Source: Herminiimonas arsenitoxidans (lineage in GTDB: Bacteria > Pseudomonadota > Gammaproteobacteria > Burkholderiales > Burkholderiaceae_D). Taken from it: a stretch of 64,000 bases of DNA. Positions 8,679 through 62,641 of the stretch are shown one piece after another (within the stretch, counting starts at the first letter, position 1; each line of letters starts with the position of its first letter). The position numbers were made by a program, and so were the translations under genes. The notes under the pieces are model-generated. The model made no database searches and was not told the origin of the DNA. It was given only the letters and a program-made list of their open reading frames with translations. The stretch covers positions 2,480,001 to 2,544,000 of the forward strand of contig NZ_LT671418.1 of the NCBI RefSeq assembly GCF_900130075.1. Direction: 5' to 3'.

Positions 8679-11552
8679 ATGAATCAACTTAACGGTATCG
8701 ACTACGGCACGAAAAAAAGTACGTCCGAAGTCATGATCTCCCTGGAAATCGACGGCGTTGCCGTCTCCGTGCCGCAAGGCACTTCCGTCATGCGTGCAGC
8801 AGCTGAATACGGCATCAACGTGCCTAAGCTGTGCGCTACCGACAGCCTCGAATCATTCGGCTCCTGCCGTCTGTGTCTGGTTGAAATCGAAGGCCGCCGC
8901 GGCTATCCAGCATCGTGCACGACACCTGCTGAAGCCGGCATGAAAGTCAAAACCCAAACACCTAAGCTGGCAGACATACGCCGTGGTGTGATGGAACTGT
9001 ACATCTCGGATCACCCGCTGGACTGCCTGACCTGCCCAACCAACGGCAACTGCGAACTGCAGGACATGGCTGGTGTAGTCGGTCTGCGCGACGTGCGTTA
9101 CGGCTACGACGGTAGCAACCATCTGAAGATGGAAAAAGACGAATCCAATCCTTACTTCACCTACGATGCATCGAAATGTATCGTTTGTAACCGCTGCGTC
9201 CGCGCTTGCGAAGAAACGCAAGGTACATTCGCTCTGACCATCGACGGCCGTGGCTTTACTTCACGCGTTGCAGCAAGTCAGAACGAAGATTTCATTGAAT
9301 CGGAATGCGTATCCTGCGGCGCTTGCGTAGACGCATGCCCAACCGCAACGCTGACCGAAAAAACCGTCATCATGATGGGCCAGGCAGAACACAGCAAAGT
9401 CACCACCTGCGCGTACTGCGGTGTTGGTTGCTCGTTCAAGGCCGAGATGAAAGGTAATGAAGTTGTCCGCATGGTTCCAAATCCGGACGGCAAAGCCAAT
9501 CAAGGTCACGCTTGCGTTAAAGGTCGTTTCGCATGGGGTTATGCAACGCATAAAGACCGCATGTTGAAACCTATGATCCGCAGCAAAATCACCGATCCTT
9601 GGAAAGAAGTGTCATGGGATGAAGCGATCAACTACGCTGCTTCCGAACTGAAACGCATCCAGGCTAAATACGGCAAGGATTCGATCGGCGGCTTGGTATC
9701 GTCGCGTTGCACCAACGAAGAAGGCTATCTGGTGCAGAAGCTGGTTCGTGCTGCTTTTGGTAACAACAACGTTGATACCTGCGCACGCGTCTGCCACTCC
9801 CCAACTGGTTACGGCTTGAAAGTAACCATGGGCGAATCCGCTGGTACCCAAACCTTTGAATCAGTGATGAAGTCTGACGTCATCTTGGTCATCGGCGCGA
9901 ACCCAGCATCAGGTCACCCAGTATTTGCATCGCAAATGAAACGCCGCATTCGTCAAGGCGCGAAGCTGATCGTTGTCGATCCACGTACAACTGAAATGGT
10001 CAAATCACCGCACGTTCTGGCTGACTACCATTTGAAATTGAAACCAGGTAGCAACGTTGCTATCGTCAATGCGCTGGCGCACGTAATCATCACCGAAAAC
10101 CTGCACAAGCCTGACTTCATCAAAGAACGTTGCGATGTAGACTCGTTCGACGAATGGGCAGAATTCGTATCGCTGCCAGAAAACTCGCCAGAAGCAATGG
10201 AAGAAGTCTCCGGCGTACCGGCAGCTGATATCCGCGGCGCAGCACGTCTGTTCGCAACCGGCGGCAATGGTTCGATCTATTACGGTCTCGGCGTTACAGA
10301 ACACGCTCAAGGTTCGACCACTGTTATCGGTATCGCCAACCTGGCGATGGCAACCGGCAACATCGGTCGCGAAGGCGTCGGCGTGAACCCACTGCGCGGT
10401 CAAAACAACGTGCAAGGTTCCTGCGATATGGGCTCCTTCCCGCACGAACTGCCAGGCTATCGTCACGTATCTGACTCGGTCGCACGCGCTGAATTCGAAG
10501 CTGTGTGGAACTGCACATTGGAATCGGAACCAGGCCTGCGTATTCCTAACATGTTCGACGCGGCCATGGACGGCACCTTCATGGGTCTGTACTGCGAAGG
10601 TGAGGACATTGTTCAGTCCGATCCAAACACGCAGCACGTTACCGCTGCGCTCGAAGCAATGGAATGCATCATTGTTCAGGATATCTTCCTGAACGAAACT
10701 GCAAAATACGCACACGTATTCCTGCCGGGTTCATCGTTCCTCGAAAAAGACGGTACCTTCACCAATGCAGAACGTCGCATCTCGCGCGTCCGCAAAGTGA
10801 TGCCGCCAAAATCGGGCAAGGGCGATTGGGAAGTCACACAAATGCTGTCGAACGCATTGGGTTACCCAATGAATTACAAACATCCACGTGAAATCATGGA
10901 TGAGATCGCTGCATTGACACCAACCTTCACCGGCGTCAGCTTCAAGCGTATCGATGAATTGGGCGGCAGTATTCAATGGCCTTGTAACGCTGAAGCGCCA
11001 GAAGGTACACCAACCATGCACATCGAAGAATTCGTGCGCGGTAAAGGTCGCTTCATCAATACCAAGTACTTCGGTAGCGGTGAGAAGGTCAATAAGAAAT
11101 TCCCATTGATCCTGACCACCGGTCGTATCTTGTCGCAATACAACGTTGGCGCGCAAACTCGTCGTACCCACAACAATATGTGGCACAGCGAAGATCGTCT
11201 GGAAATTCATCCGCACGATGCGGAAGAACGCGGCATCAAGCAGGACGACTGGGTTGGTATCCACTCGCGTGCGGGTGAAACCGTATTGCGTGCAGATATC
11301 ACCGAGCGTATCCAGGCTGGCGTCGTGTACACCACGTTCCACTTCCCTGAATCTGGTGCTAACGTGATTACGACTAACTCGTCCGACTGGGCAACTAACT
11401 GCCCTGAGTACAAAGTGACGGCAGTGCAAGTAATGCCGGTCGCCCAACCGTCGGAATGGCAACGTACGTATAATCGTTTCAATCAGGAGCAAGAAAGTTT
11501 TGCTTCCGACAAAATGATTCCGCGTGGTTCGGAACTGTCGACATCGAAGTAA
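8679..11552 (+). CDS. fdsA: Soluble formate dehydrogenase, catalytic alpha subunit (Mo/W-bis-MGD)
   Basis: This 957-residue subunit oxidises formate to CO2 at a bis-molybdopterin site. Domains in order: a plant-type [2Fe-2S] region with CRLCLVE near 63-69; a NuoG-type His/Cys cluster DHPLDCLTCPTNGNC near 111-125; two [4Fe-4S] motifs, CIVCNRCVRAC (167-177) and CVSCGACVDAC (210-220); then the molybdopterin oxidoreductase domain starting at CAYCGVGC (244-251). The metal-ligand Cys372 and His373 are present in CARVCHSPTGYG. It is cytoplasmic and has no twin-arginine signal. The cofactor could be Mo or W; the adjacent tupA makes W worth considering. Confidence 0.96.
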   Translation: MNQLNGIDYGTKKSTSEVMISLEIDGVAVSVPQGTSVMRAAAEYGINVPKLCATDSLESFGSCRLCLVEIEGRRGYPASCTTPAEAGMKVKTQTPKLADIRRGVMELYISDHPLDCLTCPTNGNCELQDMAGVVGLRDVRYGYDGSNHLKMEKDESNPYFTYDASKCIVCNRCVRACEETQGTFALTIDGRGFTSRVAASQNEDFIESECVSCGACVDACPTATLTEKTVIMMGQAEHSKVTTCAYCGVGCSFKAEMKGNEVVRMVPNPDGKANQGHACVKGRFAWGYATHKDRMLKPMIRSKITDPWKEVSWDEAINYAASELKRIQAKYGKDSIGGLVSSRCTNEEGYLVQKLVRAAFGNNNVDTCARVCHSPTGYGLKVTMGESAGTQTFESVMKSDVILVIGANPASGHPVFASQMKRRIRQGAKLIVVDPRTTEMVKSPHVLADYHLKLKPGSNVAIVNALAHVIITENLHKPDFIKERCDVDSFDEWAEFVSLPENSPEAMEEVSGVPAADIRGAARLFATGGNGSIYYGLGVTEHAQGSTTVIGIANLAMATGNIGREGVGVNPLRGQNNVQGSCDMGSFPHELPGYRHVSDSVARAEFEAVWNCTLESEPGLRIPNMFDAAMDGTFMGLYCEGEDIVQSDPNTQHVTAALEAMECIIVQDIFLNETAKYAHVFLPGSSFLEKDGTFTNAERRISRVRKVMPPKSGKGDWEVTQMLSNALGYPMNYKHPREIMDEIAALTPTFTGVSFKRIDELGGSIQWPCNAEAPEGTPTMHIEEFVRGKGRFINTKYFGSGEKVNKKFPLILTTGRILSQYNVGAQTRRTHNNMWHSEDRLEIHPHDAEERGIKQDDWVGIHSRAGETVLRADITERIQAGVVYTTFHFPESGANVITTNSSDWATNCPEYKVTAVQVMPVAQPSEWQRTYNRFNQEQESFASDKMIPRGSELSTSK

Positions 11553-17553: not shown

Positions 17554-19581
17554 ATGTCGCTTACAAGAAAAATATTGTTGTGGGCCGCAATCGCTTTGTT
17601 CGCTATCTTGCTCGCGGCTGTGCTGTTCCTGTTGATGTTTGATTGGAACAAGGCAAAGCCGTGGATCAATGAACGCGTCAGCGAGGCAACTGGCCGTAAC
17701 TTCGCGATTAACGGTGATTTGTCTCTGACCTGGCAACGGGCGCAACCCGCAACGGATACCTGGCGTGACTGGATACCAGCACCGCGTTTGAGCGCGCATG
17801 ATGTTTCACTCGGCAATCCTGAGTGGGCCAAAGCCGACAGTAATATGGCCGAGATCGGTCATATCACTTTCTCAGTCAATCCTTTACCTCTGCTGAACAA
17901 TACGATCGTGATTCCTGCCTTGCAGCTGGATGATCCTATCGTTACGTTAGAACGCATACGTGATGGCAAGAATAACTGGACCTTCAAGCAAACCGATCCT
18001 TCCGCCTGGACGCTGGATTTGCAACGTCTGTATTTTTACCGCGGTGAAATCACGCTGAAAGATGAAGTCGAACATATCGATGCGAAAGCTAATATCGATA
18101 CGCTGGAGCCAACGGCCGTTAATGATTTTGTGATGGGCTGGAAGATTACCGGGACCTTCAACGGTGCACGCATCAATGGTGATGGCAAGGCTGGTGCATT
18201 ACTGGCTTTGAAAAATGTGGATAAACCTTTTCCACTGGAAGCAAAACTGGATGTAGGTAAAACCTCGATCAGCGTCAACGGCACTGTCACCAAACCGCAA
18301 GAGCTGGCAGCCATTGATCTGCGCTTGCGTCTATCAGGCGCCAGCATGGCTGACCTTTATCCATTAACCGGGATCACGCTGCCAAAGACTCCTCAATTCT
18401 CAACTGAAGGCCATCTGATCGGCACCATCAACAAGCTTGGTGGCAAATGGACGTATGAAAAATTCAAAGGTAAGGTTGGCGCCAGCGATATCGCCGGCAG
18501 CTTGGTGTATGAATCCAAAAAACCGCGGCCACTTTTGTCCGGCACTGTCGTGTCCAATTTATTGCAATTGAGCGATCTGGGTCCGATTATTGGCGCAGAT
18601 TCCAATGCAAGTAAAAAGGAACGTGGCGTCGCGCAAAATCAACCGGCGAATAAAGTACTGCCCGTAGAAAAATTCACGACCGATCGTTGGGGCAGCATCG
18701 ATGCCGATGTCCAATTCACTGGCCACAAAATCGTGCATAGCAAATCACTGCCTATCAACAACCTGGATACGCATTTAAAAATGCAGGACAGTGTGATTAC
18801 CTTGTCGCCACTGAAGTTCGATGTGGCCGGCGGCAATATGGTGGCCGACATTAAACTGGATGGTCGCAACAACACCATCAAGGCTGAAGCAAAAGTATCC
18901 GCCCGTCATCTGAAGCTAAAACAATTGTTCCCGACCTTCCAGCCTATGCAAGCCAGCTTCGGTGAAGTCAATGGTGATACTTCTTTATCCGGTACCGGCA
19001 ACTCCATTGCGACCTTGCTTGCGACATCAAATGGTGAAATCAAATCGCTGATCAATGAAGGCACCATCAGCAAGCTCTTGCTGGAACAAATCGGTTTGAA
19101 TATCGGCAATATCGTTATTTCGCAATTGTTCGGTGACAAGCAGGTACAACTCAATTGCATGGCGACTGATCTAACCGTCACCAACGGTTTGGTGCAAACA
19201 CGTACCTTCATTGTAGATACACAAGATGCTGTGCTGTATGTGACTGGCACCATCGATTTGGCGAAAGAACAACTGGATCTCACGATCAAACCTGAAACTA
19301 AAGGCTTGCGTATTGTTTCCTTGCGCGCACCTATCTATGTGACAGGCGAATTCAATACGCCCAAAATCAGCATCGATAAAGGTGTGCTGGCATTGAAAGC
19401 GGGTAGTGCGGTGGCATTAGCGGTAGTTGCACCGATAACCGCATTGCTGCCTTTGGTGAATGTAGGCTCGAATGAAGAGAATAAATGCACTAGCTTGTTG
19501 AAAGAAGCAAAGAGCAAACCGGTCGCACCTCCACCTGGCAAAACTTATAAGGCCAAGTCTGTAAGCAAGGCGAATAAGTAA
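17554..19581 (+). CDS. AsmA-family protein
   Basis: The 675-residue protein has a single N-terminal membrane anchor (residues 8-30) followed by an AsmA N-terminal domain (WINERVSEATGRNFAINGDL; DISLGNPEWA-type block near 90) and a C-terminal AsmA region from about residue 440 (GEVNGDTSLSGTGNSIATLL; TFIVDTQDAVLYVTGTIDLA). AsmA-like proteins are large periplasmic proteins anchored in the inner membrane and are linked to outer-membrane lipid transport and assembly. The gene stands alone; the mirrored DnaA-box element begins about 75 bases after its stop. Confidence 0.88.
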   Translation: MSLTRKILLWAAIALFAILLAAVLFLLMFDWNKAKPWINERVSEATGRNFAINGDLSLTWQRAQPATDTWRDWIPAPRLSAHDVSLGNPEWAKADSNMAEIGHITFSVNPLPLLNNTIVIPALQLDDPIVTLERIRDGKNNWTFKQTDPSAWTLDLQRLYFYRGEITLKDEVEHIDAKANIDTLEPTAVNDFVMGWKITGTFNGARINGDGKAGALLALKNVDKPFPLEAKLDVGKTSISVNGTVTKPQELAAIDLRLRLSGASMADLYPLTGITLPKTPQFSTEGHLIGTINKLGGKWTYEKFKGKVGASDIAGSLVYESKKPRPLLSGTVVSNLLQLSDLGPIIGADSNASKKERGVAQNQPANKVLPVEKFTTDRWGSIDADVQFTGHKIVHSKSLPINNLDTHLKMQDSVITLSPLKFDVAGGNMVADIKLDGRNNTIKAEAKVSARHLKLKQLFPTFQPMQASFGEVNGDTSLSGTGNSIATLLATSNGEIKSLINEGTISKLLLEQIGLNIGNIVISQLFGDKQVQLNCMATDLTVTNGLVQTRTFIVDTQDAVLYVTGTIDLAKEQLDLTIKPETKGLRIVSLRAPIYVTGEFNTPKISIDKGVLALKAGSAVALAVVAPITALLPLVNVGSNEENKCTSLLKEAKSKPVAPPPGKTYKAKSVSKANK

Positions 19582-19656
19582 GTGTTCTTTGCGGAGCAGA
19601 GAAAAATTTTTTCTACTATTTGAATAAATGGACAAAAGCCAGATTAGCGAAAAGTC

Positions 19657-19941
19657 CTGTGGATAAGTCTCTGGGGAAGAGGTGGATAGCTTGTGGATAA
19701 TCTTGTGGAGAAGTCGGCCTTCTTTTTTATACAGAATCTATCCTTTACAGATACACCGTTTATGCAGGGTTTATCTTTTCTTCAAGTCTTTGATTTCAAT
19801 ACCACTTAATGACTTATCCACAGAAAAGTGCCTGCGTTAACTATTACTACTAAACATATATATAAACAATTAACTTAAAACCAGAATCTCCTTCTTTGTC
19901 CTCAAATACAGAAAAAATCCTCTAACAGCCTCTGTAAAAAC
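19657..19941 (+). repeat. Left arm of 285-bp inverted repeat
   Basis: This arm matches the reverse complement of 20662-20946 at 281 of 285 positions by manual alignment. The four differences are two adjacent swaps (AG/GA near 19910 and CT/TC near 19921). Beyond the outer end the similarity continues but is weaker (GATTAGCGAAAA against GATAAGTGAAAAA). It contains three perfect DnaA boxes and one variant. Confidence 0.95.
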
Positions 19942-20661
19942 TAAGCAAGCTCTACAAAATTTCAACTACAAGAGAAGTCGTTCTCTCTCATCTCAATCTA
20001 CGTCCCTATTTCCTTGATCAACGCGTCAAGACTTCAATAGGCGTAAAAACCGTTTTTCAACTGCAGTGCCATCGACTATCAAGATTTCAACTGCAGTGCC
20101 ATCGACTATCAAGAAATCATGTTCTGCTACTGGGTAGTCTTTAAAAACCACATCTGCAAAGCAGTCAAACAAGCTGGCAAACCTTGTTTCAAATGCTCTA
20201 TTTGGTCATTTTGATTTTTAAATTCGGCTGATCTTGATGTCTGAGTAGCGCAATATTGTCTATTGTCAGGTCTGTACCCACTGTTCCTGCCCTTGAATAG
20301 GGATAAGTGAGGGGACGGCTTCAACTTTAGGTCAAAGTCGCTGGAATGCCTTCTACCGCCATTTTTTGCTTCTTCAATGGCGTATCCCAAGCATTAAATT
20401 CAAATAAATACCTATTTATTAAGCATTTAGCTCTCAAAGCGGCTTTTGAGGAGTCATTTTTCAACGCTGGTTTGATTTTAGGATGCATACGCATAAGTGC
20501 AGTGAACATGCTTACCTTGTAAGAAACCCAATTTTTGAAATCAATCAATTCAAAACTAAAGGTCTACAAAAATTGGTTGAGCTGTTTTACGGAGATGCGA
20601 TCTGAATTTTATGAGTCAACGTTTTTCAGATTTATTCATTAATAATTTCAGTAAGAACTTT
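19942..20661. other. 720-bp AT-rich spacer between the inverted arms
   Basis: The spacer holds a 30-bp tandem duplication (20055-20114) and two short overlapping minus-strand open frames (20327-20548, 73 codons; 20127-20390, 87 codons) in different phases. These have no recognisable domain and could be decayed remains of one gene. No terminal inverted repeat or transposase motif of a known insertion sequence was identified. Confidence 0.6.
20055..20114 (+). repeat. 30-bp exact tandem duplication inside the spacer
   Basis: The unit begins TTTCAACTGCAGTGCCATCG and ends ACTATCAAGA. It occurs at 20055-20084 and again, identical, at 20085-20114. Exact identity suggests a recent slippage or a functional iteron; two copies are too few to decide. 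Confidence 0.95.
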
Positions 20662-20946
20662 GTTTTTACAGAGGCTGTTGAAGGATTTTTTTCGTATTTG
20701 AGGACAAAGAAGGAGATTCTGGTTTTAAGTTAATTGTTTATATATATGTTTAGTAGTAATAGTTAACGCAGGCACTTTTCTGTGGATAAGTCATTAAGTG
20801 GTATTGAAATCAAAGACTTGAAGAAAAGATAAACCCTGCATAAACGGTGTATCTGTAAAGGATAGATTCTGTATAAAAAAGAAGGCCGACTTCTCCACAA
20901 GATTATCCACAAGCTATCCACCTCTTCCCCAGAGACTTATCCACAG
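20662..20946 (-). repeat. Right arm of 285-bp inverted repeat
   Basis: This is the mirror of 19657-19941. In it, the DnaA-trio-like run TAGTAGTAATAG is at 20751-20762 and DnaA boxes are at 20781-20789, 20891-20899 (variant), 20903-20911 and 20937-20945. The mmsA start follows about 95 bases after its outer end. Confidence 0.95.
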
Positions 20947-21040
20947 ACCTTTTTCACTTATCAAGCTTTTGCATCATGGTAATCTTGTGCGGTTTTGCGC
21001 TACTTATAACGATAGAAAAATCTTATTTGAAGGAATGCTT

Positions 21041-22561
21041 ATGACAACGACTCCCTCGAGAATTCAGCATTACATCGGCGGTCGCTTGGTAGATACGAGC
21101 GGTGGCAAACAGCAGGATGTATTTAATCCCGCCACCGGCGAGGTGAGTGCACAAGTTGTTCTGGCCAGTGATGCTGATGTACAGACAGTCGTGGCGACGG
21201 CAAAAGCAGCCGCGCCGGCATGGGCTGATACAGCGCCATTGAAGCGTGCGCGTATCCTCTTCAAATTCAAAGAGCTGATCGAAAAACATCACAATGATCT
21301 GGCTGCAGCGATCACACGTGAACACGGCAAGGTTTTTTCGGATGCCAAAGGTGAGGTCACACGCGGGCTGGAAGTGGTCGAGTTTGCCTGTGGTGTGCCG
21401 CAATTATTGAAAACTCAGTTCACCGACAATATCGGTGGCGGTATCGATAACTGGAACTTGCGTCAGCCGCTGGGTGTGACAGCCGGCATCACACCTTTCA
21501 ATTTTCCTTTCATGGTGCCGATGTGGATGGCACCGGTTGCGCTGGCAACAGGCAACACATTCATTTTAAAGCCCTCTGAGCGCGATCCATCACCATCCTT
21601 GATGGTAGCGGAGCTGTTGCATCAAGCAGGGCTGCCTGACGGCGTTTTCAATGTCTTGCAGGGAGATAAGCTGGCAGTTGATGGTCTGCTGCATCACCCG
21701 GATGTAAAAGCAGTCTCCTTCGTCGGTTCAACACCGATAGCCGAATACATTTATGCAACGGGTGCTGCGCGTAAAGGCGGCGCCTATCCATTACGCGTAC
21801 AGGCACTTGGCGGTGCGAAAAATCATTTAGTGGTGATGCCGGATGCAAATCTGGAGCAGGCGGTCGATGCCTTGATCGGAGCGGCTTATGGTTCTGCCGG
21901 CGAGCGTTGCATGGCGATTTCCGTTGCGGTAGCGGTTGGTGATGTAGCGGACAAGTTGGTTGCGGCATTAATCCCGCGTGTGAAATCCCTCAAGGTAAAA
22001 AACGGTATGGAAGCCGATGCCGAGATGGGGCCGGTCGTCAGCGCAGCGCATAAAGCCAAAATCGAAGGCTATATTGAGGCGGGAGTGCAGGCTGGCGCGA
22101 AGTTGCTGGTGGATGGTCGAGGATTACATGTAGATGGTGGTAGTAAAGGATTCTTTATTGGAGGTTGTCTATTCGACCATGTAACGCCGGAGATGACGAT
22201 CTATCAAGAAGAGATTTTTGGCCCGGTTTTGTGCGTTGTGCGCGTGCCGAACTTCGCGGCTGCGCTTGATTTGATCAATGCACATGAATTCGGCAATGGC
22301 GTTGCTCTATTTACCTCGGATGGCAATACGGCTCGCGAATTTTCACGTCGCGTTGAAGTTGGCATGATCGGTATCAATGTGCCGATTCCTGTGCCTATGG
22401 CCTGGCATTCATTCGGCGGTTGGAAACGCTCGATGTTTGGCGACACGCATGCTTATGGGGAAGAGGGCGTCAAGTTCTACACTCGTTATAAATCGATCAT
22501 GCAGCGTTGGCCAGAGTCGATTGCCAAGGGTGCGGAGTTCGCGATGCCGACTAGTAAATAA
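21041..22561 (+). CDS. mmsA: CoA-acylating methylmalonate-semialdehyde dehydrogenase
   Basis: The 506-residue enzyme belongs to the ALDH superfamily. The segments [48 protein letters not shown] (catalytic Cys) and [10 protein letters not shown] are typical of MMSDH rather than of general aldehyde dehydrogenases. It converts methylmalonate semialdehyde (or malonate semialdehyde) to propionyl- or acetyl-CoA with NAD+, in valine, inositol or beta-alanine breakdown. The ATG at 21041 is chosen because GAAGGA lies just upstream; an upstream ATG at 20969 lacks this. No other valine-pathway gene is nearby. Confidence 0.9.
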
Positions 22562-25207: not shown

Positions 25208-27145
25208 ATGATCTTTCCTACCAAATTTGATGTCATCGTAGTCGGCGGCGGCCATGCCGGGACGGAGGCCGCCCTGGCGTCTGCTCGCATGGGGCAATCG
25301 ACCCTTTTGCTTTCGCACAATATTGAAACGCTGGGGCAAATGTCCTGCAATCCATCCATCGGTGGCATAGGCAAAGGGCACTTGGTCAAGGAAGTCGATG
25401 CCATGGGCGGTGCAATGGCAATTGCCACTGATGAGGCCGGCATACAATTCCGTATCTTGAATTCGTCGAAAGGTCCAGCCGTCCGGGCTACACGCGCGCA
25501 AGCCGATCGTATTCTGTACAAGCAAGCCATCCGTTCCCGTCTGGAGAATCAACCGAATCTGTGGCTGTTCCAGCAGGCAGTCGATGATCTGCTGGTAGAA
25601 GGCGATCGCGTGGTGGGTGCTGTGACGCAAGCCGGGATTCAGTTCCGCGCGCGGGCAGTAGTGTTGACTGCAGGTACCTTCCTCGATGGCAAGATCCATA
25701 TCGGCATGAATAATTATTCTGCTGGTAGAGCCGGTGATCCGCCAGCGATTTCACTGTCGGCACGTCTGAAAGAATTGAAGCTACCGCAAGGCCGCTTGAA
25801 AACCGGTACGCCGCCACGGATCGACGGTCGTTCTATCGACTTCTCCGTGATGCAGGAACAGCCGGGCGATCTGGATCCGATTCCGGTATTTTCGGTGATG
25901 GGTTCGGTCGCGATGCATCCGAAGCAAATGCCTTGCTGGATTACACACACCAATGAAAAAACCCACGATCTGATCCGCGGTGGTCTGGATCGCAGTCCGA
26001 TGTACACCGGCGTGATTGAAGGCGTGGGCCCACGTTATTGCCCATCGATCGAAGACAAGATACATCGTTTTGCCGGCAAGGAGTCCCATCAGATCTTCCT
26101 TGAGCCAGAAGGCTTGACGACTAACGAATATTATCCAAATGGCATCTCCACCAGCTTGCCTTTCGACGTGCAACTCGCATTGGTGCAGTCTATGCGCGGG
26201 TTGGAACATGCGCATATCTTGCGTCCCGGTTATGCGATTGAATACGACTACTTCGATCCGCGTGGCTTGAAGTCATCACTGGAAACCAAGGTTATCCAGG
26301 GCCTGTTCTTTGCAGGCCAGATCAATGGCACCACCGGTTACGAGGAAGCGGCAGCACAAGGCATGTTGGCGGGTATCAATGCCGCCTTGCAGACGCAAGA
26401 TCGCGATGCATGGACACCTCGCCGCGACGAAGCTTATCTCGGCGTGTTGGTCGACGACCTGATTACCAAGGGTGTGCTGGAACCGTACCGCATGTTTACC
26501 AGCCGTGCTGAATATCGTTTGAGCTTGCGCGAAGACAATGCCGATATGCGTCTGACCGAAATCGGCCGTCAGCTGGGTTGCGTCGGCGATGCGCAATGGG
26601 CGATGTTTGAAACCAAGCGCGAAGCCGTTGCACGCGAGCTGGAACGCCTGCGTTCGACTTGGGTTAGCCCTCGCATTTTGGCTGAAGCTGAAGCTGAACG
26701 TGTTTTAGGTAAAGGCATAGAGCGTGAGTATGCGCTCGCTGACTTGCTGCGCCGCCCGAACGTTAACTACGAAACCCTGATGACCCTGAAGGGCATGGAT
26801 GGCCAGGATCTGGGCGGTCCAGGTGTAGCGGAAGAGGCTGTGCGCGAGCAAGTCGAGATCCAGTTGAAGTACGCCGGCTACATCGATAGACAAGCCAAAG
26901 AAGTCGAGCGCCACGATTATTACGAGAATTTGAAGTTGCCAGCCGAGTTTGATTACATGGCCGTCAAAGGCTTGTCGATCGAAGTGCGTCAAAAGTTGAC
27001 CAAGCAACGTCCGGAAACTCTGGGCCAAGCATCGCGTATTTCCGGCGTTACACCAGCTGCTATTTCATTGATGCTGGTACATCTGAAAAAAGGCGGTTTC
27101 AAGGAATTCGCTGTATTACCACCTAACACTGAAGCTGCTGCATGA
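25208..27145 (+). CDS. mnmG: tRNA uridine-5-carboxymethylaminomethyl modification enzyme MnmG
   Basis: The 645-residue FAD protein (GidA) has the N-terminal [19 protein letters not shown] nucleotide-binding motif, the [20 protein letters not shown] block, [11 protein letters not shown], and the C-terminal domain. With MnmE it installs cmnm5 on wobble U34 of several tRNAs. A TATAAT at 25167-25172 is a probable -10 box. It overlaps rsmG by four bases, and mnmG-rsmG-parA-parB is a classic origin-proximal order in bacteria. Confidence 0.97.
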
Positions 27146-27804
27146 AGGCATTTGATCGTCCCGCATTAACCGTATTACTCGTTCAGGGTGCGCGTGATTT
27201 ATCGTTGAACTTGAGCGAAGCGCAGATCACCAAGCTGATCGACTATCTGGCCTTGATGGCGAAATGGAATTCGGTTTACAACCTGACCGCCGTGCGCGAT
27301 CCGGTGCAGATGGTCACGCAACATTTGCTGGACTCATTGGCGGCTGTATCTGCATTTACCAATGCGAAGTATGTATTGGATGTCGGCGCAGGCGGTGGCT
27401 TGCCTGGTATCGTGTTGGCAATCTGGGCGGCGGAAGCGCAGCCTGAGATGCGCATCTCGATGATCGATACCGTGCATAAAAAAACGGCTTTCCTGACGCA
27501 GGTAAAAGCCGAGTTGAGCTTAAGCAATGTTAGTGTGCATACTGCGCGTGTCGAGCAATGGCAGGCACCGCAGAAATTCGATGTGATTACCTCGCGTGCA
27601 TTTGCCGAGCTATCCGACTTCATTACCTGGTCAGAACATTTGCTGGCGGACGGTGGTGAGTTCATCGCGCTCAAAGGTGTCGCGCCTGATACCGAAGTAG
27701 CGCGTCTGCCTGCAGGATGGCAGGTGAGGGAAGTGCGTGTCTTGCACGTGCCGACGCTGCAAGCCGAGCGTCATTTGGTGTTCATTACAAGAGTTGCGTC
27801 ATAA
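27142..27804 (+). CDS. rsmG: 16S rRNA (guanine527-N7)-methyltransferase RsmG
   Basis: The 220-residue protein (GidB) has [20 protein letters not shown] and the SAM-binding motif [17 protein letters not shown] near residues 75-91, with [15 protein letters not shown] further on. It methylates G527 of 16S rRNA at N7. The ATG overlaps the mnmG stop (ATGA), implying coupled translation. Confidence 0.96.
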
Positions 27805-27934
27805 AGCAGGAATGCTTGTTGCATCGTAGGCAGTAGCGCTTAGTAATAAGAATTTCTGCCAGCTTCATTTTCAAAACAGCAGAAGTTTTTCTGATTGGCT
27901 TTGAGATTGATAGACCACTAACCAAAACGAGAAT

Positions 27935-28705
27935 ATGGCAAAAATATTTTGCGTCGCCAATCAAAAAGGTGGAGTCGGTAAAACCACCACAGCCGTCAAC
28001 CTGGCAGCAGCACTTGCACAATTAAATCAACGCGTCTTGCTGGTGGATCTGGATCCGCAAGGTAATGCCACGATGGGTGCGGGCATCAACAAGTCGGAAT
28101 TGAAGTCATCGATCTACGAAGTCTTGCTCGGCATGGCTGATGTAGTGACAGCGCGTGTGACTTCAGAAACGGGCAAGTTCGATGTGTTGCCGGCCAATCG
28201 CGAACTGGCTGGTGCAGAAGTGGAAATGGTCGAGTTGGACAATCGCGAAAAGCGCTTGAAAGATGCGCTCGCAGTGGTCGATGCAGAATACGATTTCATG
28301 CTGATCGATTGCCCACCTGCATTGTCCATGCTGACCTTGAACGGTTTGTGCGCAGCGCATGGTGTCATCATTCCTATGCAGTGTGAATACTATGCGCTCG
28401 AAGGTTTGTCCGATCTGGTCAACACGATCAAGAAAGTCCACGCCAAGTTGAATACCGACTTGAAGATCATCGGTTTGCTGCGCGTGATGTTTGATCCACG
28501 CATGACGTTATCGCAGCAGGTATCTTCGCAGCTGGAACAGCATTTCGGCGACAAGGTATTTAAAACCATCATCCCGCGTAATGTGCGTTTGGCAGAGGCG
28601 CCATCGTATGGCATGCCGGGTATCAATTTCGATCCATCATCGAAAGGTGCGCAAGCGTATCTGACCTTCGGTGCCGAGATGGTTGAACGGATCAAGACGA
28701 TTTAA
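27935..28705 (+). CDS. parA: Chromosome-partitioning ATPase ParA (Soj)
   Basis: The 256-residue protein has the deviant Walker A motif KGGVGKTTTAVNLAAALA at residues 10-27, Walker A' LLVDLDPQGNAT and Walker B FMLIDCPPALSMLTL. It forms DNA-bound ATP dimers that move ParB-parS complexes to segregate the origin region. It precedes parB by 65 bases, presumably in one transcript, with two parS sites 3-4.5 kb upstream. Confidence 0.96.
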   Translation: MAKIFCVANQKGGVGKTTTAVNLAAALAQLNQRVLLVDLDPQGNATMGAGINKSELKSSIYEVLLGMADVVTARVTSETGKFDVLPANRELAGAEVEMVELDNREKRLKDALAVVDAEYDFMLIDCPPALSMLTLNGLCAAHGVIIPMQCEYYALEGLSDLVNTIKKVHAKLNTDLKIIGLLRVMFDPRMTLSQQVSSQLEQHFGDKVFKTIIPRNVRLAEAPSYGMPGINFDPSSKGAQAYLTFGAEMVERIKTI

Positions 28706-28770
28706 ATATAACGAGGAAGAGAGCGCCTGTTGCGCCATCCTCATTAATCAAAAGATGTGAGTCAGGAATT

Positions 28771-29670
28771 ATGGTCACGAAAAAACAAAAAGGTTTGGGG
28801 CGCGGTCTGGAAGCATTGTTAGGTGGTGCTTCGGACTTCAATGAAGCGATTGCTGCTTTGCCTGGTGCTCCATCGACGCTGCAAGTCACCGACATGCAAG
28901 CTGGTAAATATCAGCCGCGTACGCGCATGGATGAAGGCGCATTGAATGAGCTCGCCGCATCGATCAAGGCGCAAGGTTTGCTGCAGGCAATTCTGGTGCG
29001 CCCGATCGCTTCGCATAACGGCCGTGATCGTTACGAAATTATTGCCGGTGAACGCCGCTTCCGCGCAGCACAACTGGCTGGTCTGACTGAAGTGCCGGTA
29101 CTCGTTAAAGAAGTTGATGACGAAGCCGCCGCCGCGATGGCGCTGATTGAAAACATACAGCGCGAAGATTTGAATCCATTGGAAGAAGCGCAAGGCATAC
29201 ATCGCCTGATCGCTGATTTCAATTTTACGCACGAGCAAGCGGCGCATGCCGTTGGACGCTCACGTAGCGCGGTATCCAACCTGCTGCGTTTGCTGAACCT
29301 GGCGAAGCCGGTGCAAACCATGCTGATGGCCGGCGATATTGATATGGGTCACGCGCGTGCTTTGCTGGCGGTTGATGCCGCCACGCAAATTAACTTGGCA
29401 AATCAAGTCGTCGCCAAACGCATGTCGGTACGTGAAGCCGAGAAATTGGTGGTGCGTTCTACATTGGAACAAGCTGCAGGCAATAAGCCACGTGCCAACG
29501 GCAAGGAAAAATCGCGCGACATTACCCGTTTGGAAGAAGAGCTGTCGGATTTGCTGGCAAGTCAGGTCGAAATCAAACTGGGCGCGAAGAACAAAGGTCA
29601 ACTGGTGGTCGATTTTGCCGACCTTGATGCGCTGGACGGCATTATTGCCAAATTACGCGTTACAGCCTGA
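28771..29670 (+). CDS. parB: Chromosome-partitioning protein ParB (Spo0J)
   Basis: The 299-residue protein has the KKQKGLGRGLEALLG N-terminal tail (ParA contact), the ParB CTPase/N-domain (YQPRTRMDEGALNELAASIK; YEIIAGERRFRAAQLAG; ENIQREDLNPLEEAQ) and the HTH ThEQAAHAVGRSRSAVSNLL. A C-terminal dimerisation region follows after about 240. It binds parS and spreads. The two exact parS palindromes in this window are its predicted sites. Confidence 0.97.
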   Translation: MVTKKQKGLGRGLEALLGGASDFNEAIAALPGAPSTLQVTDMQAGKYQPRTRMDEGALNELAASIKAQGLLQAILVRPIASHNGRDRYEIIAGERRFRAAQLAGLTEVPVLVKEVDDEAAAAMALIENIQREDLNPLEEAQGIHRLIADFNFTHEQAAHAVGRSRSAVSNLLRLLNLAKPVQTMLMAGDIDMGHARALLAVDAATQINLANQVVAKRMSVREAEKLVVRSTLEQAAGNKPRANGKEKSRDITRLEEELSDLLASQVEIKLGAKNKGQLVVDFADLDALDGIIAKLRVTA

Positions 29671-59444: not shown

Positions 59445-60589
59445 AACCGCTTGTGCGTGTGGCTTGCGCACAAAATGAAGCGTACGGAGCTTAATTCCGC
59501 GTTAAAAATGCTCAGTTTTGGCGCGTACCGATTTATCTTATGCACAGAATGTGCAGTTGATAGCCAAGTTGTCGGTTTCCGCCATGGTTCACAATTCTTT
59601 ACAAAACGTGATTTATAAGTCTTTGATTTTATTGGTTAAATAATTTGCTTCTTGTTTTGGCATTTTATTGAAACCCGCATGGGACATGGCATTTCCCGCC
59701 ATCTATGGGGTTTATCCACAAAGTTATCCACAGGTTTTGTGGATAGCTTAAAAAGAGCTTAAGAAACGTGGAGTTAGCGCACTTGTTGATATTTCACATG
59801 AGGTTTGAAGCGCGGTGTTGATGCAAACGGTTTACTTGTTGACAAGAAATTCTTGCATTGAAGAAGTGCAAAATCAGCATCAGAATCTGCTTCACAATTT
59901 CTTTGCAGCATAAAATTTCCAAGCTTATTCACAAAATGGTGCGTGAGAGTAAGGAGAATGCTTGTTGTTTAAGATTTGGCGGTGTGAGGCAAGCTGCTTT
60001 TATCTTATTGATTTTAAACAGTTTATTTTCAGCTGTTATGGCCGACAAAATGATGCTTCAGGCAGCTTGTCCAGATGGATGGGAAAAGACGGGTAATTGT
60101 CCACAAAGTTATCCACAGGCTTGTGGATACTTTTAAAAAGCGTTTAGGAAACCGCAAGTTAGCGAATTTCCTTATGCTCCACCTGAAGTCTTTGTGCAGA
60201 TGCAACAAAATCTGGCATTTGAAATGCCTCTTTTTGCGATGTTGATTAGCCAATTGAATGTGTGCGGTGCATCGATAAAAATATGGAATAAAAAGCATGT
60301 TTGCGATAGTCAGAGCAAACTTATGCACAAAAATAAGCTTGTGCGCAGCAACATCATTTATTTAATATTTTTATTAATAATAAAAATCATCTATTTATAA
60401 GTGATTGATTTAAAACAGATTAATTTCTGCATTGGTTTTAGGCAATCTATTGGAAGCCGCATCAATACTGGCCTCTCCGGCTGTCAAGAGGCTCTTATCC
60501 ACAAAGTTATCCACAGAGGCTGTGGATAGATAAAAAAGCGCTTATGAAACGGGTAGTTACGTCATTTCCTCAGGTCTTACATTAACTCT
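59445..60589. other. Intergenic DnaA-box cluster: three ~390-bp-spaced repeats between hemE and priA
   Basis: This 1.1-kb AT-rich gap has no convincing gene. Three related blocks share TTATCCACAAAGTTATCCAC or a one-base variant, an inverted TGTGGATA and similar flanks. Boxes are at 59712-59720, 59724-59732 and 59738-59746; at 60097-60105, 60109-60117 and 60122-60130; and at 60495-60503, 60507-60515 and 60521-60529. Extra TTATNCACA sites are at 59538-59546, 59925-59933 and 60321-60329. A very AT-rich stretch lies at 60354-60420. Possible roles are an origin, a DnaA reservoir (datA-like) or regulation of priA. Confidence 0.7.
59700..60560 (+). repeat. Three imperfect direct repeats (~95 bp core, period 385-398 bp)
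   Basis: Using the second box of each unit as anchor (59724, 60109, 60507) the periods are 385 and 398 bases. After the boxes each unit continues with an A-rich run (AAAAAGAGCTTAAGAAACG / AAAAAGCGTTTAGGAAACCG / AAAAAAGCGCTTATGAAACG), then GTTAGCG- or GTTACGT-like sequence. Upstream flanks are also recognisably related. The units have diverged, so the duplication is not recent. Confidence 0.85.
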
Positions 60590-62641
60590 GTGGAACCTTG
60601 CATCCTCAAAGTCGCCCTCGACACGCCGCTCGATTTCTGCTTCGACTATATTTGGGTCGCCGCAGATGCGGATAGTGCGCGTCCGCTAGCCGGTCAACTG
60701 GCGCTGGTGCCTTTCGGCCGGCGCGAAGTGGTGGGCTTGATCATCTCCGTGCATGAGAGCACCGACGTCCCGCTCGACAAGCTCAAGCAGGCGATCGCCG
60801 TGCGCACGCAATTGCCGCCGCTGTCGGCTGAGTGGATCGCGCTGTGCGCCTTTGCCGCCGATTATTACCAACGTCCTTTGGGCGAAGTGGCAATTCCGGG
60901 TTTGCCCAAGAATCTGCGTGCGCTGAAAACCACTTCGCTGGATAAAGCGATCAAGAAGCTGGGCAAGGCCGATGCCGTGCATGACGCCACGCCGATAGCC
61001 ATGCCGCAATTGAATCCGGCGCAGCAAGAGGCCGCCGATGCGATTGCCGGCGCAACTGGTTTTGCACCGACCTTGTTATATGGCGTGACCGGTAGCGGCA
61101 AGACGGAAGTCTATTTGCAAGCGGCCGCGCAAATCCTCGCGCACAGCATAGATGAGCACAATCCAGCGCAAATCCTGATCCTGGTGCCGGAGATTAATCT
61201 GACGCCGCAACTGGAAGCGAACGTGCGCGCACGTTTCCCCGGCGTAGCGATTGCGACGCTGCATAGCGGTTTGGCCGAAGGCGAGCGCGTCATGCATTGG
61301 ATGGCAGCACATCTGGGTCATGCGCGCATAGTGCTGGGTACGCGCCTCGCGATACTGTCTTCGTTGCCGCATCTGAAATTGATCATCGTCGATGAAGAAC
61401 ACGATCCTTCATACAAGCAGCAAGAGGGTTTGCGTTATTCGGCGCGCGATCTGGCGGTGTGGCGTGCGCATCAATTAAGTATTCCTATCGTGCTCGGTTC
61501 CGCCACGCCTTCGCTGGAAACCTGGCACCACGCGCAATCCGGTCGTTATCGCAAACTCGAATTGCGTGAGCGCGCCGTCAAGGATGCGGTCTTGCCCAAG
61601 GTCGGCCTGATCGATCTGGAGCGCAAGGCACCGCGTGAAAAAATGACGGAAGGTATCAGCGAGACGCTGATCACGGCCTTGAAGTTGCGTATGGAGCGTG
61701 GCGAACAATCGCTGCTTTTCCTGAATCGTCGCGGTTATGCGCCAGTGATTGCTTGTGATTCCTGCGGCTGGATCAGCAACTGCACGCGTTGCAGTGCCTT
61801 CCTCGTGTTGCACAAACTCGATAAGCGTTTGCGTTGTCATCATTGCGGCTACGAGCAACGCATACCGCGCTCCTGTCCGGACTGCGGCAACGTCGATATT
61901 CAACCGCTGGGTCGCGGCACGCAACGCGTGGAAGAAAGTCTGCAACTGATTTTTCCCGAAGCGCGCATCATGCGCATCGATGCCGATTCGACGCGGCGCA
62001 AGGGGAGTGCGCAAGAAGCTTTCGATACCGTACATCGCGGCGAGGTCGATATCCTGATCGGCACGCAAATGGTGGCGAAAGGGCATGACTTCCAGAATCT
62101 GACTTTGGTTGGTGTGCTGAATCCTGACACTGCCTTGTTCTCGCATGATTACCGCGCCAGCGAAAGACTGTTCGCGCAATTGATGCAAGTCGCCGGTCGC
62201 GCTGGTCGCGTCGCGCAGAAGGAGGGCGGCAGCGCGAGTGAAGTGTTGATACAAACGCGTTATCCGCAGCATCCTTTATTTGCCGCAGTACGTACCCACG
62301 ATTACGACACCTTCGCCAGCGAGTTGCTGGAAGAGCGGCAGCAGGCGAGTTTTCCGCCTTTCATTTATCAGGCGCTGTTGCGCGCGGAAGCGAAGGAAAT
62401 CAAGATCGCGCTGGACTTCCTGCGTGCGGCAATTGCCTGCGTCGATTATCCCGGCATCACGATGAATGATCCTATCCCGATGACGATGACGCGCGTCGCC
62501 AATGTCGACAGGGCACAATTGCTGGTGGAATGTACGTCGCGTCCGGCGCTGCAAGCTTTCCTGAAAGTCTGGATTGCCGCTATACGCGAGATGAAGACGC
62601 GTGTGCGTTGGTCGCTGGAAGTCGATCCGGTCGATATCTAA
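60590..62641 (+). CDS. priA: Primosomal protein N' (replication-restart helicase PriA)
   Basis: The 683-residue helicase has the 3'-DNA-binding N-domain (ALDTPLDFCFDYIWVAADAD), Walker A TLLYGVTGSGKTEVYLQA (about 161-178), DEEHDPSYKQQEGLRYSARD, the zinc-binding cysteines CDSCGWISNCTRC and CHHCGYEQRIPRSCPDCG (about 390-430) and the C-terminal helicase motif QVAGRAGR. It reloads DnaB at stalled forks. It starts with GTG at 60590 without a strong ribosome site. A DnaA-box repeat ends 60 bases upstream. Confidence 0.95.
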   Translation: MEPCILKVALDTPLDFCFDYIWVAADADSARPLAGQLALVPFGRREVVGLIISVHESTDVPLDKLKQAIAVRTQLPPLSAEWIALCAFAADYYQRPLGEVAIPGLPKNLRALKTTSLDKAIKKLGKADAVHDATPIAMPQLNPAQQEAADAIAGATGFAPTLLYGVTGSGKTEVYLQAAAQILAHSIDEHNPAQILILVPEINLTPQLEANVRARFPGVAIATLHSGLAEGERVMHWMAAHLGHARIVLGTRLAILSSLPHLKLIIVDEEHDPSYKQQEGLRYSARDLAVWRAHQLSIPIVLGSATPSLETWHHAQSGRYRKLELRERAVKDAVLPKVGLIDLERKAPREKMTEGISETLITALKLRMERGEQSLLFLNRRGYAPVIACDSCGWISNCTRCSAFLVLHKLDKRLRCHHCGYEQRIPRSCPDCGNVDIQPLGRGTQRVEESLQLIFPEARIMRIDADSTRRKGSAQEAFDTVHRGEVDILIGTQMVAKGHDFQNLTLVGVLNPDTALFSHDYRASERLFAQLMQVAGRAGRVAQKEGGSASEVLIQTRYPQHPLFAAVRTHDYDTFASELLEERQQASFPPFIYQALLRAEAKEIKIALDFLRAAIACVDYPGITMNDPIPMTMTRVANVDRAQLLVECTSRPALQAFLKVWIAAIREMKTRVRWSLEVDPVDI

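Follow-up and report, generated by a model that had tools for sequence, protein, structure and literature searches.

In yeast, helicase loading is quasi-symmetrical and takes place at two inverted ORC sites, and DnaA-titrating (datA) and DnaA-recharging (DARS) loci lie away from the origin. The BUS of bacterial oriC, as set out in passages of PMC6669920 and PMC8287927, consists of a DnaA box, a spacer and DnaA-trios, and the search for it described in part of PMC8287927 limited the distance from box to trio to 16 bp. For the bipartite oriC of Bacillus subtilis and Helicobacter pylori, a passage of PMC6669920 states that one half suffices for unwinding in vitro. On helicase loading, a passage of PMC10201434 (2023) proposes that one helicase is loaded onto the DnaA-bound strand and calls the loading of the other unclear. 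The locus of Herminiimonas arsenitoxidans described here is very probably the chromosomal replication origin (oriC), consisting of two whole origin modules in mirrored arrangement. No mirrored oriC layout was found, among the matches listed, in the titles or abstract openings of open-licence PMC literature on duplicated, inverted or bipartite oriC, on DnaA-trios or the BUS, or on Herminiimonas or Oxalobacteraceae origins.

The whole genome is a single contig of 3,784,322 bases, of which the window (the entire stretch of 64,000 nucleotides that was analysed) covers positions 2,480,001-2,544,000; five-digit coordinates are those of the window, and G numbers denote genomes. Computed directly, the repeat consists of two inverted copies of 296 nt each (19650-19945 and 20658-20953), identical at 289 of 296 positions with 7 mismatches, separated by 712 nt and situated between an AsmA-family gene and an aldehyde dehydrogenase gene. 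The original prediction had drawn shorter arms of 285 bp (19657-19941 and 20662-20946) with 4 differing positions, which is the number found, and had described the sequence outside them as related but diverged; similarity indeed drops there yet goes on, 19633-19945 and 20658-20971 matching at 96%. Its three perfect TTATCCACA boxes and one variant per arm were likewise recovered, the variant being TTCTCCACA, and the two facing copies of an origin-like module that it had recognized each also hold a DnaA-trio, an AT-rich stretch and an IHF-type site. The features of the locus are the following.

17554-19581, plus strand: AsmA-family gene, left flank, with its stop at 19581
19650-19945, minus strand: left putative origin module (arm), DnaA-trio on the minus strand, AT-rich side facing right
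19658-19712, minus strand: left outer DnaA boxes (19658 and 19692 perfect; 19704 is TTCTCCACA)
19783-19795, minus strand: left IHF-consensus site AATCAAAGACTTG, exact match, at a 27-nt offset from the core box
19814-19822, plus strand: left core DnaA box TTATCCACA, perfect
19841-19852, minus strand: left DnaA-trio TAGTAGTAATAG, 18 nt from the core DnaA box
19842-19885, no strand: left AT-rich candidate unwinding element, 82% AT, overlapping the trio (the 40-mer at 19842 is 85% AT)
19946-20657, no strand: spacer between the two arms
20227-20361, minus strand: probable decayed remnant of a phosphorylase-superfamily gene, 135 bp, from a DNA shuffle test
20658-20953, plus strand: right putative origin module (arm), DnaA-trio on the plus strand, AT-rich side facing left, present in 13 of 13 genus genomes
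20718-20761, no strand: right AT-rich candidate unwinding element, 82% AT, overlapping the trio (the 40-mer at 20727 is 85% AT)
20751-20762, plus strand: right DnaA-trio TAGTAGTAATAG, by sequence pattern
20781-20789, minus strand: right core DnaA box TTATCCACA, perfect
20808-20820, plus strand: right IHF-consensus site AATCAAAGACTTG, exact match
20891-20945, plus strand: right outer DnaA boxes (20891 is TTCTCCACA; 20903 and 20937 perfect)
21041-22561, plus strand: aldehyde dehydrogenase gene (called MmsA here), right flank, with its start at 21041
25208-29670, plus strand: origin-proximal gene block beginning about 4 kb to the right of the element, which we take from its translations to be mnmG(gidA)-rsmG-parA-parB

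From the inner side outward, each arm comprises an AT stretch, the trio, 18 nt, a perfect DnaA box, the IHF consensus and the outer boxes. TAGTAGTAATAG represents four DnaA-trio-type triplets; it is read from the minus strand in the left arm and from the plus strand in the right one, and the AT-rich sides of both arms point inward; the best AT-rich 40-mers of the arms rank second and third among the non-overlapping 40-mers of the window. The AATCAAAGACTTG sites were called with what we take to be the IHF consensus, which has 8 exact matches in the 64-kb window, three of them in or beside the element. Perfect DnaA boxes number 42 in the 3.78 Mb of the genome, where a reversed control pattern occurs 12 times; the 1.3 kb of the element contains 6 of the boxes. 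The element thus shows the DnaA-box cluster of an oriC and, as judged from base composition, an AT-rich candidate unwinding element adjoining the boxes. In the BUS as defined in a passage of PMC8287927, a DnaA box comes first and three or more DnaA-trios of the right polarity come after it, which is the arrangement here; the spacer between the sole box and the trios, at 18 nt, exceeds the limit of 16 bp given there. Even when up to 4 mismatches are allowed, no second DnaA box is wholly contained in the 18-nt spacer, one 4-mismatch 9-mer overlapping the spacer end and the trio. The module would be expected to work like a BUS, yet it is not classed as one under the spacer criterion of at most 16 bp.

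The skew change at the locus was also computed directly. Over the 400 kb around the window, cumulative GC skew declines to a plateau at about 2.485-2.500 Mb and climbs from 2.500 Mb, at the element. In 5-kb bins, skew is mostly negative leftward, flat from about 5 to 20 kb of the window and positive in 17 out of 17 bins from 20 kb, after which two weakly negative bins follow at 2.585-2.595 Mb. The numerical minimum lies at 2,491,174 (window position 11,174), which puts it some 8 kb to the left of the element; a change-point search in 1-kb bins prefers, by a small margin, two positions left of the element (2.491 and 2.479 Mb), and the skew of this genome on its own resolves the change no better than to about 15-20 kb. 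The GC-skew check proposed with the original prediction came out in its favour. The sign of the skew changes at this site, with a precision of about 15 kb, and two relatives with complete genomes have minima inside the homologous element: at 3,374,766 within 3,374,450-3,375,857 in G001 (180 kb examined) and at 4,043,568 within 4,043,078-4,044,100 in G007 (170 kb examined). Of twenty sampled stretches, those between the right side of the element and 0.57 Mb, going round the circle, are positive and those from 0.76 to 2.20 Mb negative, and the opposite skew change is therefore between 0.57 and 0.76 Mb, across the circle from the element. A chromosome of about 3.78 Mbp with a skew transition at oriC is reported for H. 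arsenitoxidans AS8 in passages of PMC5670224, which leave the layout of the origin unmentioned. Adjacency to dnaA, which is common for oriC and not required, is not seen here: dnaA is located at 2,432,657 on the minus strand, 67 kb from the element. The same distance, 67 kb, separates dnaA from the skew change, so that in this genome the origin and dnaA do not lie together. The dnaA region (2,431,157-2,434,636) contains two perfect DnaA boxes in 3.5 kb.

The skew change, the anatomy of the modules and their conservation are the grounds for reading the element as oriC. In the mechanism that this anatomy suggests, DnaA would bind the core and outer boxes in each arm, IHF, at a fixed position between the core and outer boxes, would bend the DNA, and DnaA would spread onto the DnaA-trio, opening the AT-rich stretch on its inner side. 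Both arms would open toward the spacer, and both, not the right one alone, would join in initiation.

Alignment with related genomes, also proposed with the original prediction, matched the element in 13 out of 13 genomes of the genus, in all of which the module lies in the AsmA-MmsA interval (split over two contigs in G002 and G011). Eight of these genomes have the mirrored layout (two of them inferred from contig ends), two have direct tandem copies and three a single copy. Both mirrored arms are found on one contig in G000, G001, G005, G007, G009 and G010; in G011 and G002 each arm stands at a contig end, on two separate contigs whose orientations are consistent with a mirror, and the left contig of G002 reaches only the outer part of the arm, without the core. 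G004 and G012 carry two copies in direct orientation, and G003, G006 and G008 carry one. The MmsA aldehyde dehydrogenase gene is next to the module in all 13 genomes and the AsmA-family gene flanks the origin region in all 13 (on the second contig in G002 and G011), another gene being positioned between the AsmA-family gene and the single module in G008. A protein tree of the four flanking genes, for which midpoint rooting only was used, splits G003, G004, G006 and G012 from the other nine genomes with a support of 100, and the mirrored layout is present in eight of the nine. The IHF consensus at the 27-nt offset is exact in 18 of 22 genus modules and has one mismatch in the other 4 (the coreless left piece of G002 being left out of the count). 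The mirrored double oriC is a real, conserved layout that is kept in most close relatives. Nevertheless, two arms are not required, because G008 has lost its left arm and G003 and G006 are single-copy.

This pattern bears on the function of the two arms, not on the place of the origin. It is quite possible, although we lean the other way, that the right arm alone is the working origin and that the left one is a spare or regulatory DnaA-binding copy, kept similar by gene conversion and comparable to that half of a bipartite origin which does not unwind. All 13 genomes have the right (MmsA-side) copy, the left being missing in G003, G006 and G008, and the B. subtilis and H. pylori origins unwind in vitro with one half, according to the passage of PMC6669920 on them. 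However, the left arm of G009, which is no longer homogenised, retains the trio, the box and the IHF site, a set that a pure DnaA-binding copy would not need. Moreover, the diverged copies of the three non-homogenised pairs differ less in the core motif than elsewhere: the core motif is the same at 50 of 54 positions compared with 127 of 199 in the rest in G009 (Fisher p 2e-5), at 46 of 56 compared with 100 of 208 in G004 (p 4e-6) and at 41 of 56 compared with 100 of 190 in G012 (p 0.009). This would point to selection on the second copy, against which the three single-copy genomes out of 13 were counted.

The arms could also be a datA- or DARS-like locus near the origin, titrating or recharging DnaA, instead of the origin itself. 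This reading, which we consider highly improbable, would account for the clustered strong boxes and for the distance to dnaA, whereas many bacterial origins adjoin dnaA; but the skew changes at the element and reaches its minima inside it in two relatives, which is not the position away from the origin typical of such loci, trios and AT-rich stretches are present, and another DnaA-box array could fill the role. This array occupies the intergenic region 59480-60600 between two genes that are presumably hemE and priA, is matched in 13 out of 13 genus genomes, and consists of three units of about 390 bp with a DnaA-box triplet in each and 5 perfect boxes in total. A second origin-like element is one possible identity for the array, a DnaA locus of the datA/DARS type another. 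The same intergenic region includes the 40-mer with the highest AT content in the window (at 60361, 95% AT). That the second arm is an assembly artefact, a possibility raised by the original prediction, is barely credible: near-identical inverted repeats can be misassembled, but the arms differ at 7 places, five other genomes (two of them complete) have the mirrored pair on one contig with species-specific sequence, and in two more assemblies the contigs end inside an arm or at its inner edge.

The reading as a double oriC leaves the likeness of the arms to be explained, for which the original prediction had offered homogenisation or recent duplication. The former is favoured by the genome-specific sequence of the arms, while the latter is not supported, the pair being common to eight of the nine genomes of the clade. 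Gene conversion appears to fit the arms better than a new duplication because they share lineage-specific sequence within an older duplication. Six of the seven genomes tested have arms that match each other at 92-100% in four core segments, reaching from the AT stretch to 115 nt beyond the start of the trio, and that carry genome-specific sequence; in G001 the identity is 92, 97, 100 and 98% in the core and 49, 76 and 42% further out. G009 is the exception (85, 95, 44 and 80% in the core segments), and its left arm groups with that of G001. In the core, a single left-arm clade was rejected (delta lnL 276, AU p 1e-6, 19 of 23 arms), and strict pairing of all seven arm pairs was rejected by the AU test (p 2e-4) and not by the SH test (p 0.10); in the outer part, the single left-arm clade and strict pairing were both rejected (AU p 5e-4 and 4e-3). 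The AU test omitted G002_L, G004_D, G012_D and G012_R, and G002_L is also absent from the core tree. One inherited left-arm lineage without conversion is thus rejected by AU in both core and outer part, the similarity of the arms going beyond such a simple lineage.

The spacers carry a further trace of this history. Those of G001, G005 and G009 have a common open reading frame and are 70-84% identical, and the same open reading frame stands beside the single arm of G008; the G001 protein, the only one scanned, belongs to the phosphorylase superfamily (PF01048, E 2e-43). The stretch 20227-20361 of the present spacer is a probable decayed remnant of that gene in the same orientation, since 0, 2, 5 and 5 of 200 shuffles reach its score against G009, G008, G001 and G005, respectively, in a comparison of DNA; comparison of the remnant with the gene product as protein was not significant. 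The spacers of G007 and G010 gave no trace of the remnant by the DNA shuffle test; they are 62% identical to each other (259 columns), and their resemblance to the others is limited to short pieces next to the arms. A single event in an ancestor common to one clade of the genus would have produced the mirrored pair on either side of a gene that is still found there in some species, and repeated gene conversion would since have kept the arms alike. A single origin of the pair is most likely, and for G007, G010, G002 and G011 it rests on parsimony. A mobile element was also considered and rejected, as no further copy of the 1.4-kb element exists elsewhere in the genome, the spacer open reading frame 20127-20390 has no Pfam match at E 0.001, and the one match of an Rfam scan of 19400-21200 (15.9 bits) is far below the cut-off of 60. 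The spacer also contains, at 20055-20114 on the plus strand, two perfect tandem copies of a 30-nt sequence.

A strict trio-spacer-box pattern matched 97 out of 392 family genomes, which are a sample of a larger group, and 42 of them had two matches; these counts are lower bounds, one G001 arm having been missed. The 42 comprise 34 direct pairs, 360-1090 bp apart and distributed over 8 genera, five pairs mirrored as here (all in this genus) and G011 with its two contigs. The remaining two, G134 and G175, have modules that are opposed in the reverse sense, 2.9-3.0 kb from one another, and the aldehyde dehydrogenase gene between them. Three tandem modules, the third diverged, were seen in G015 and G116. 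All 40 modules of 20 loci from 20 two-match genomes have a trio-box spacing of 17-18 nt (the pattern allowed 15-23), and an exact IHF consensus lies at most 60 nt from the box in 13 of them. Across the order, a looser pattern matched 10 out of 200 genomes (7 of the 200 from this family), including five outside the family with one match each. Skew at the direct pairs is mixed: the minimum of G044 is 4-5 kb from the pair, G039 shows a dip that is only local, the skew being lower still where the stretch ends, and the direct pair of G311 has no skew support. In part of PMC3093359, the probable origin of Herbaspirillum seropedicae, of the same family, is placed at dnaA by skew and gene position. 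This placement and the mixed skew of the direct pairs weigh against the oriC reading.

The mirror layout could make testable how two copying machines depart in opposite directions. The genome encodes a DciA-type helicase loader gene (E 2e-6). In a symmetric origin, each DnaA filament would guide a helicase onto its own trio strand, each arm would load one helicase, on opposite strands, and since bacterial helicases move 5'-to-3', the left one would exit leftward and the right one rightward, two outward forks arising from symmetry; gene conversion would keep the two halves matched. We regard this model as speculative and rather unlikely. If the model is true, the symmetry of the DNA would by itself account for bidirectional replication, and the second strand would require no mechanism of its own. 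Bidirectional replication cannot generally need a mirrored layout, since relatives have direct pairs and single copies. One genus displays the origin module duplicated, set in either orientation, lost and homogenised, and the mirrored origin together with close relatives of single-module and direct-pair layout is a ready-made comparison set for the question of how two helicases are placed.

Compared with yeast ORC, the two inverted initiator sites would likewise set two helicases in opposite orientation, but the yeast proteins are others and load around double-stranded DNA, and the analogy is one of function only. The direct tandem modules of the family share the module itself and a near-equal box-trio spacing (17-18 nt), whereas they are co-oriented, with both trios on one strand, and the G004 and G012 copies have diverged. 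With the BUS, the module has in common the order and polarity of box, spacer, at least three 3'-NAN-5' trios (mostly GAT) and AT-rich sequence beyond; it differs in its two facing copies with trios on opposite strands and in its spacing of 18 nt against at most 16. Like a bipartite oriC, the element has two DnaA-box regions with a spacer between them, which holds a gene in some species. However, the bipartite type has its unwinding region in one half only, whereas here the two halves are mirror copies and a trio and an AT-rich stretch, the parts of an unwinding module, are present in both.
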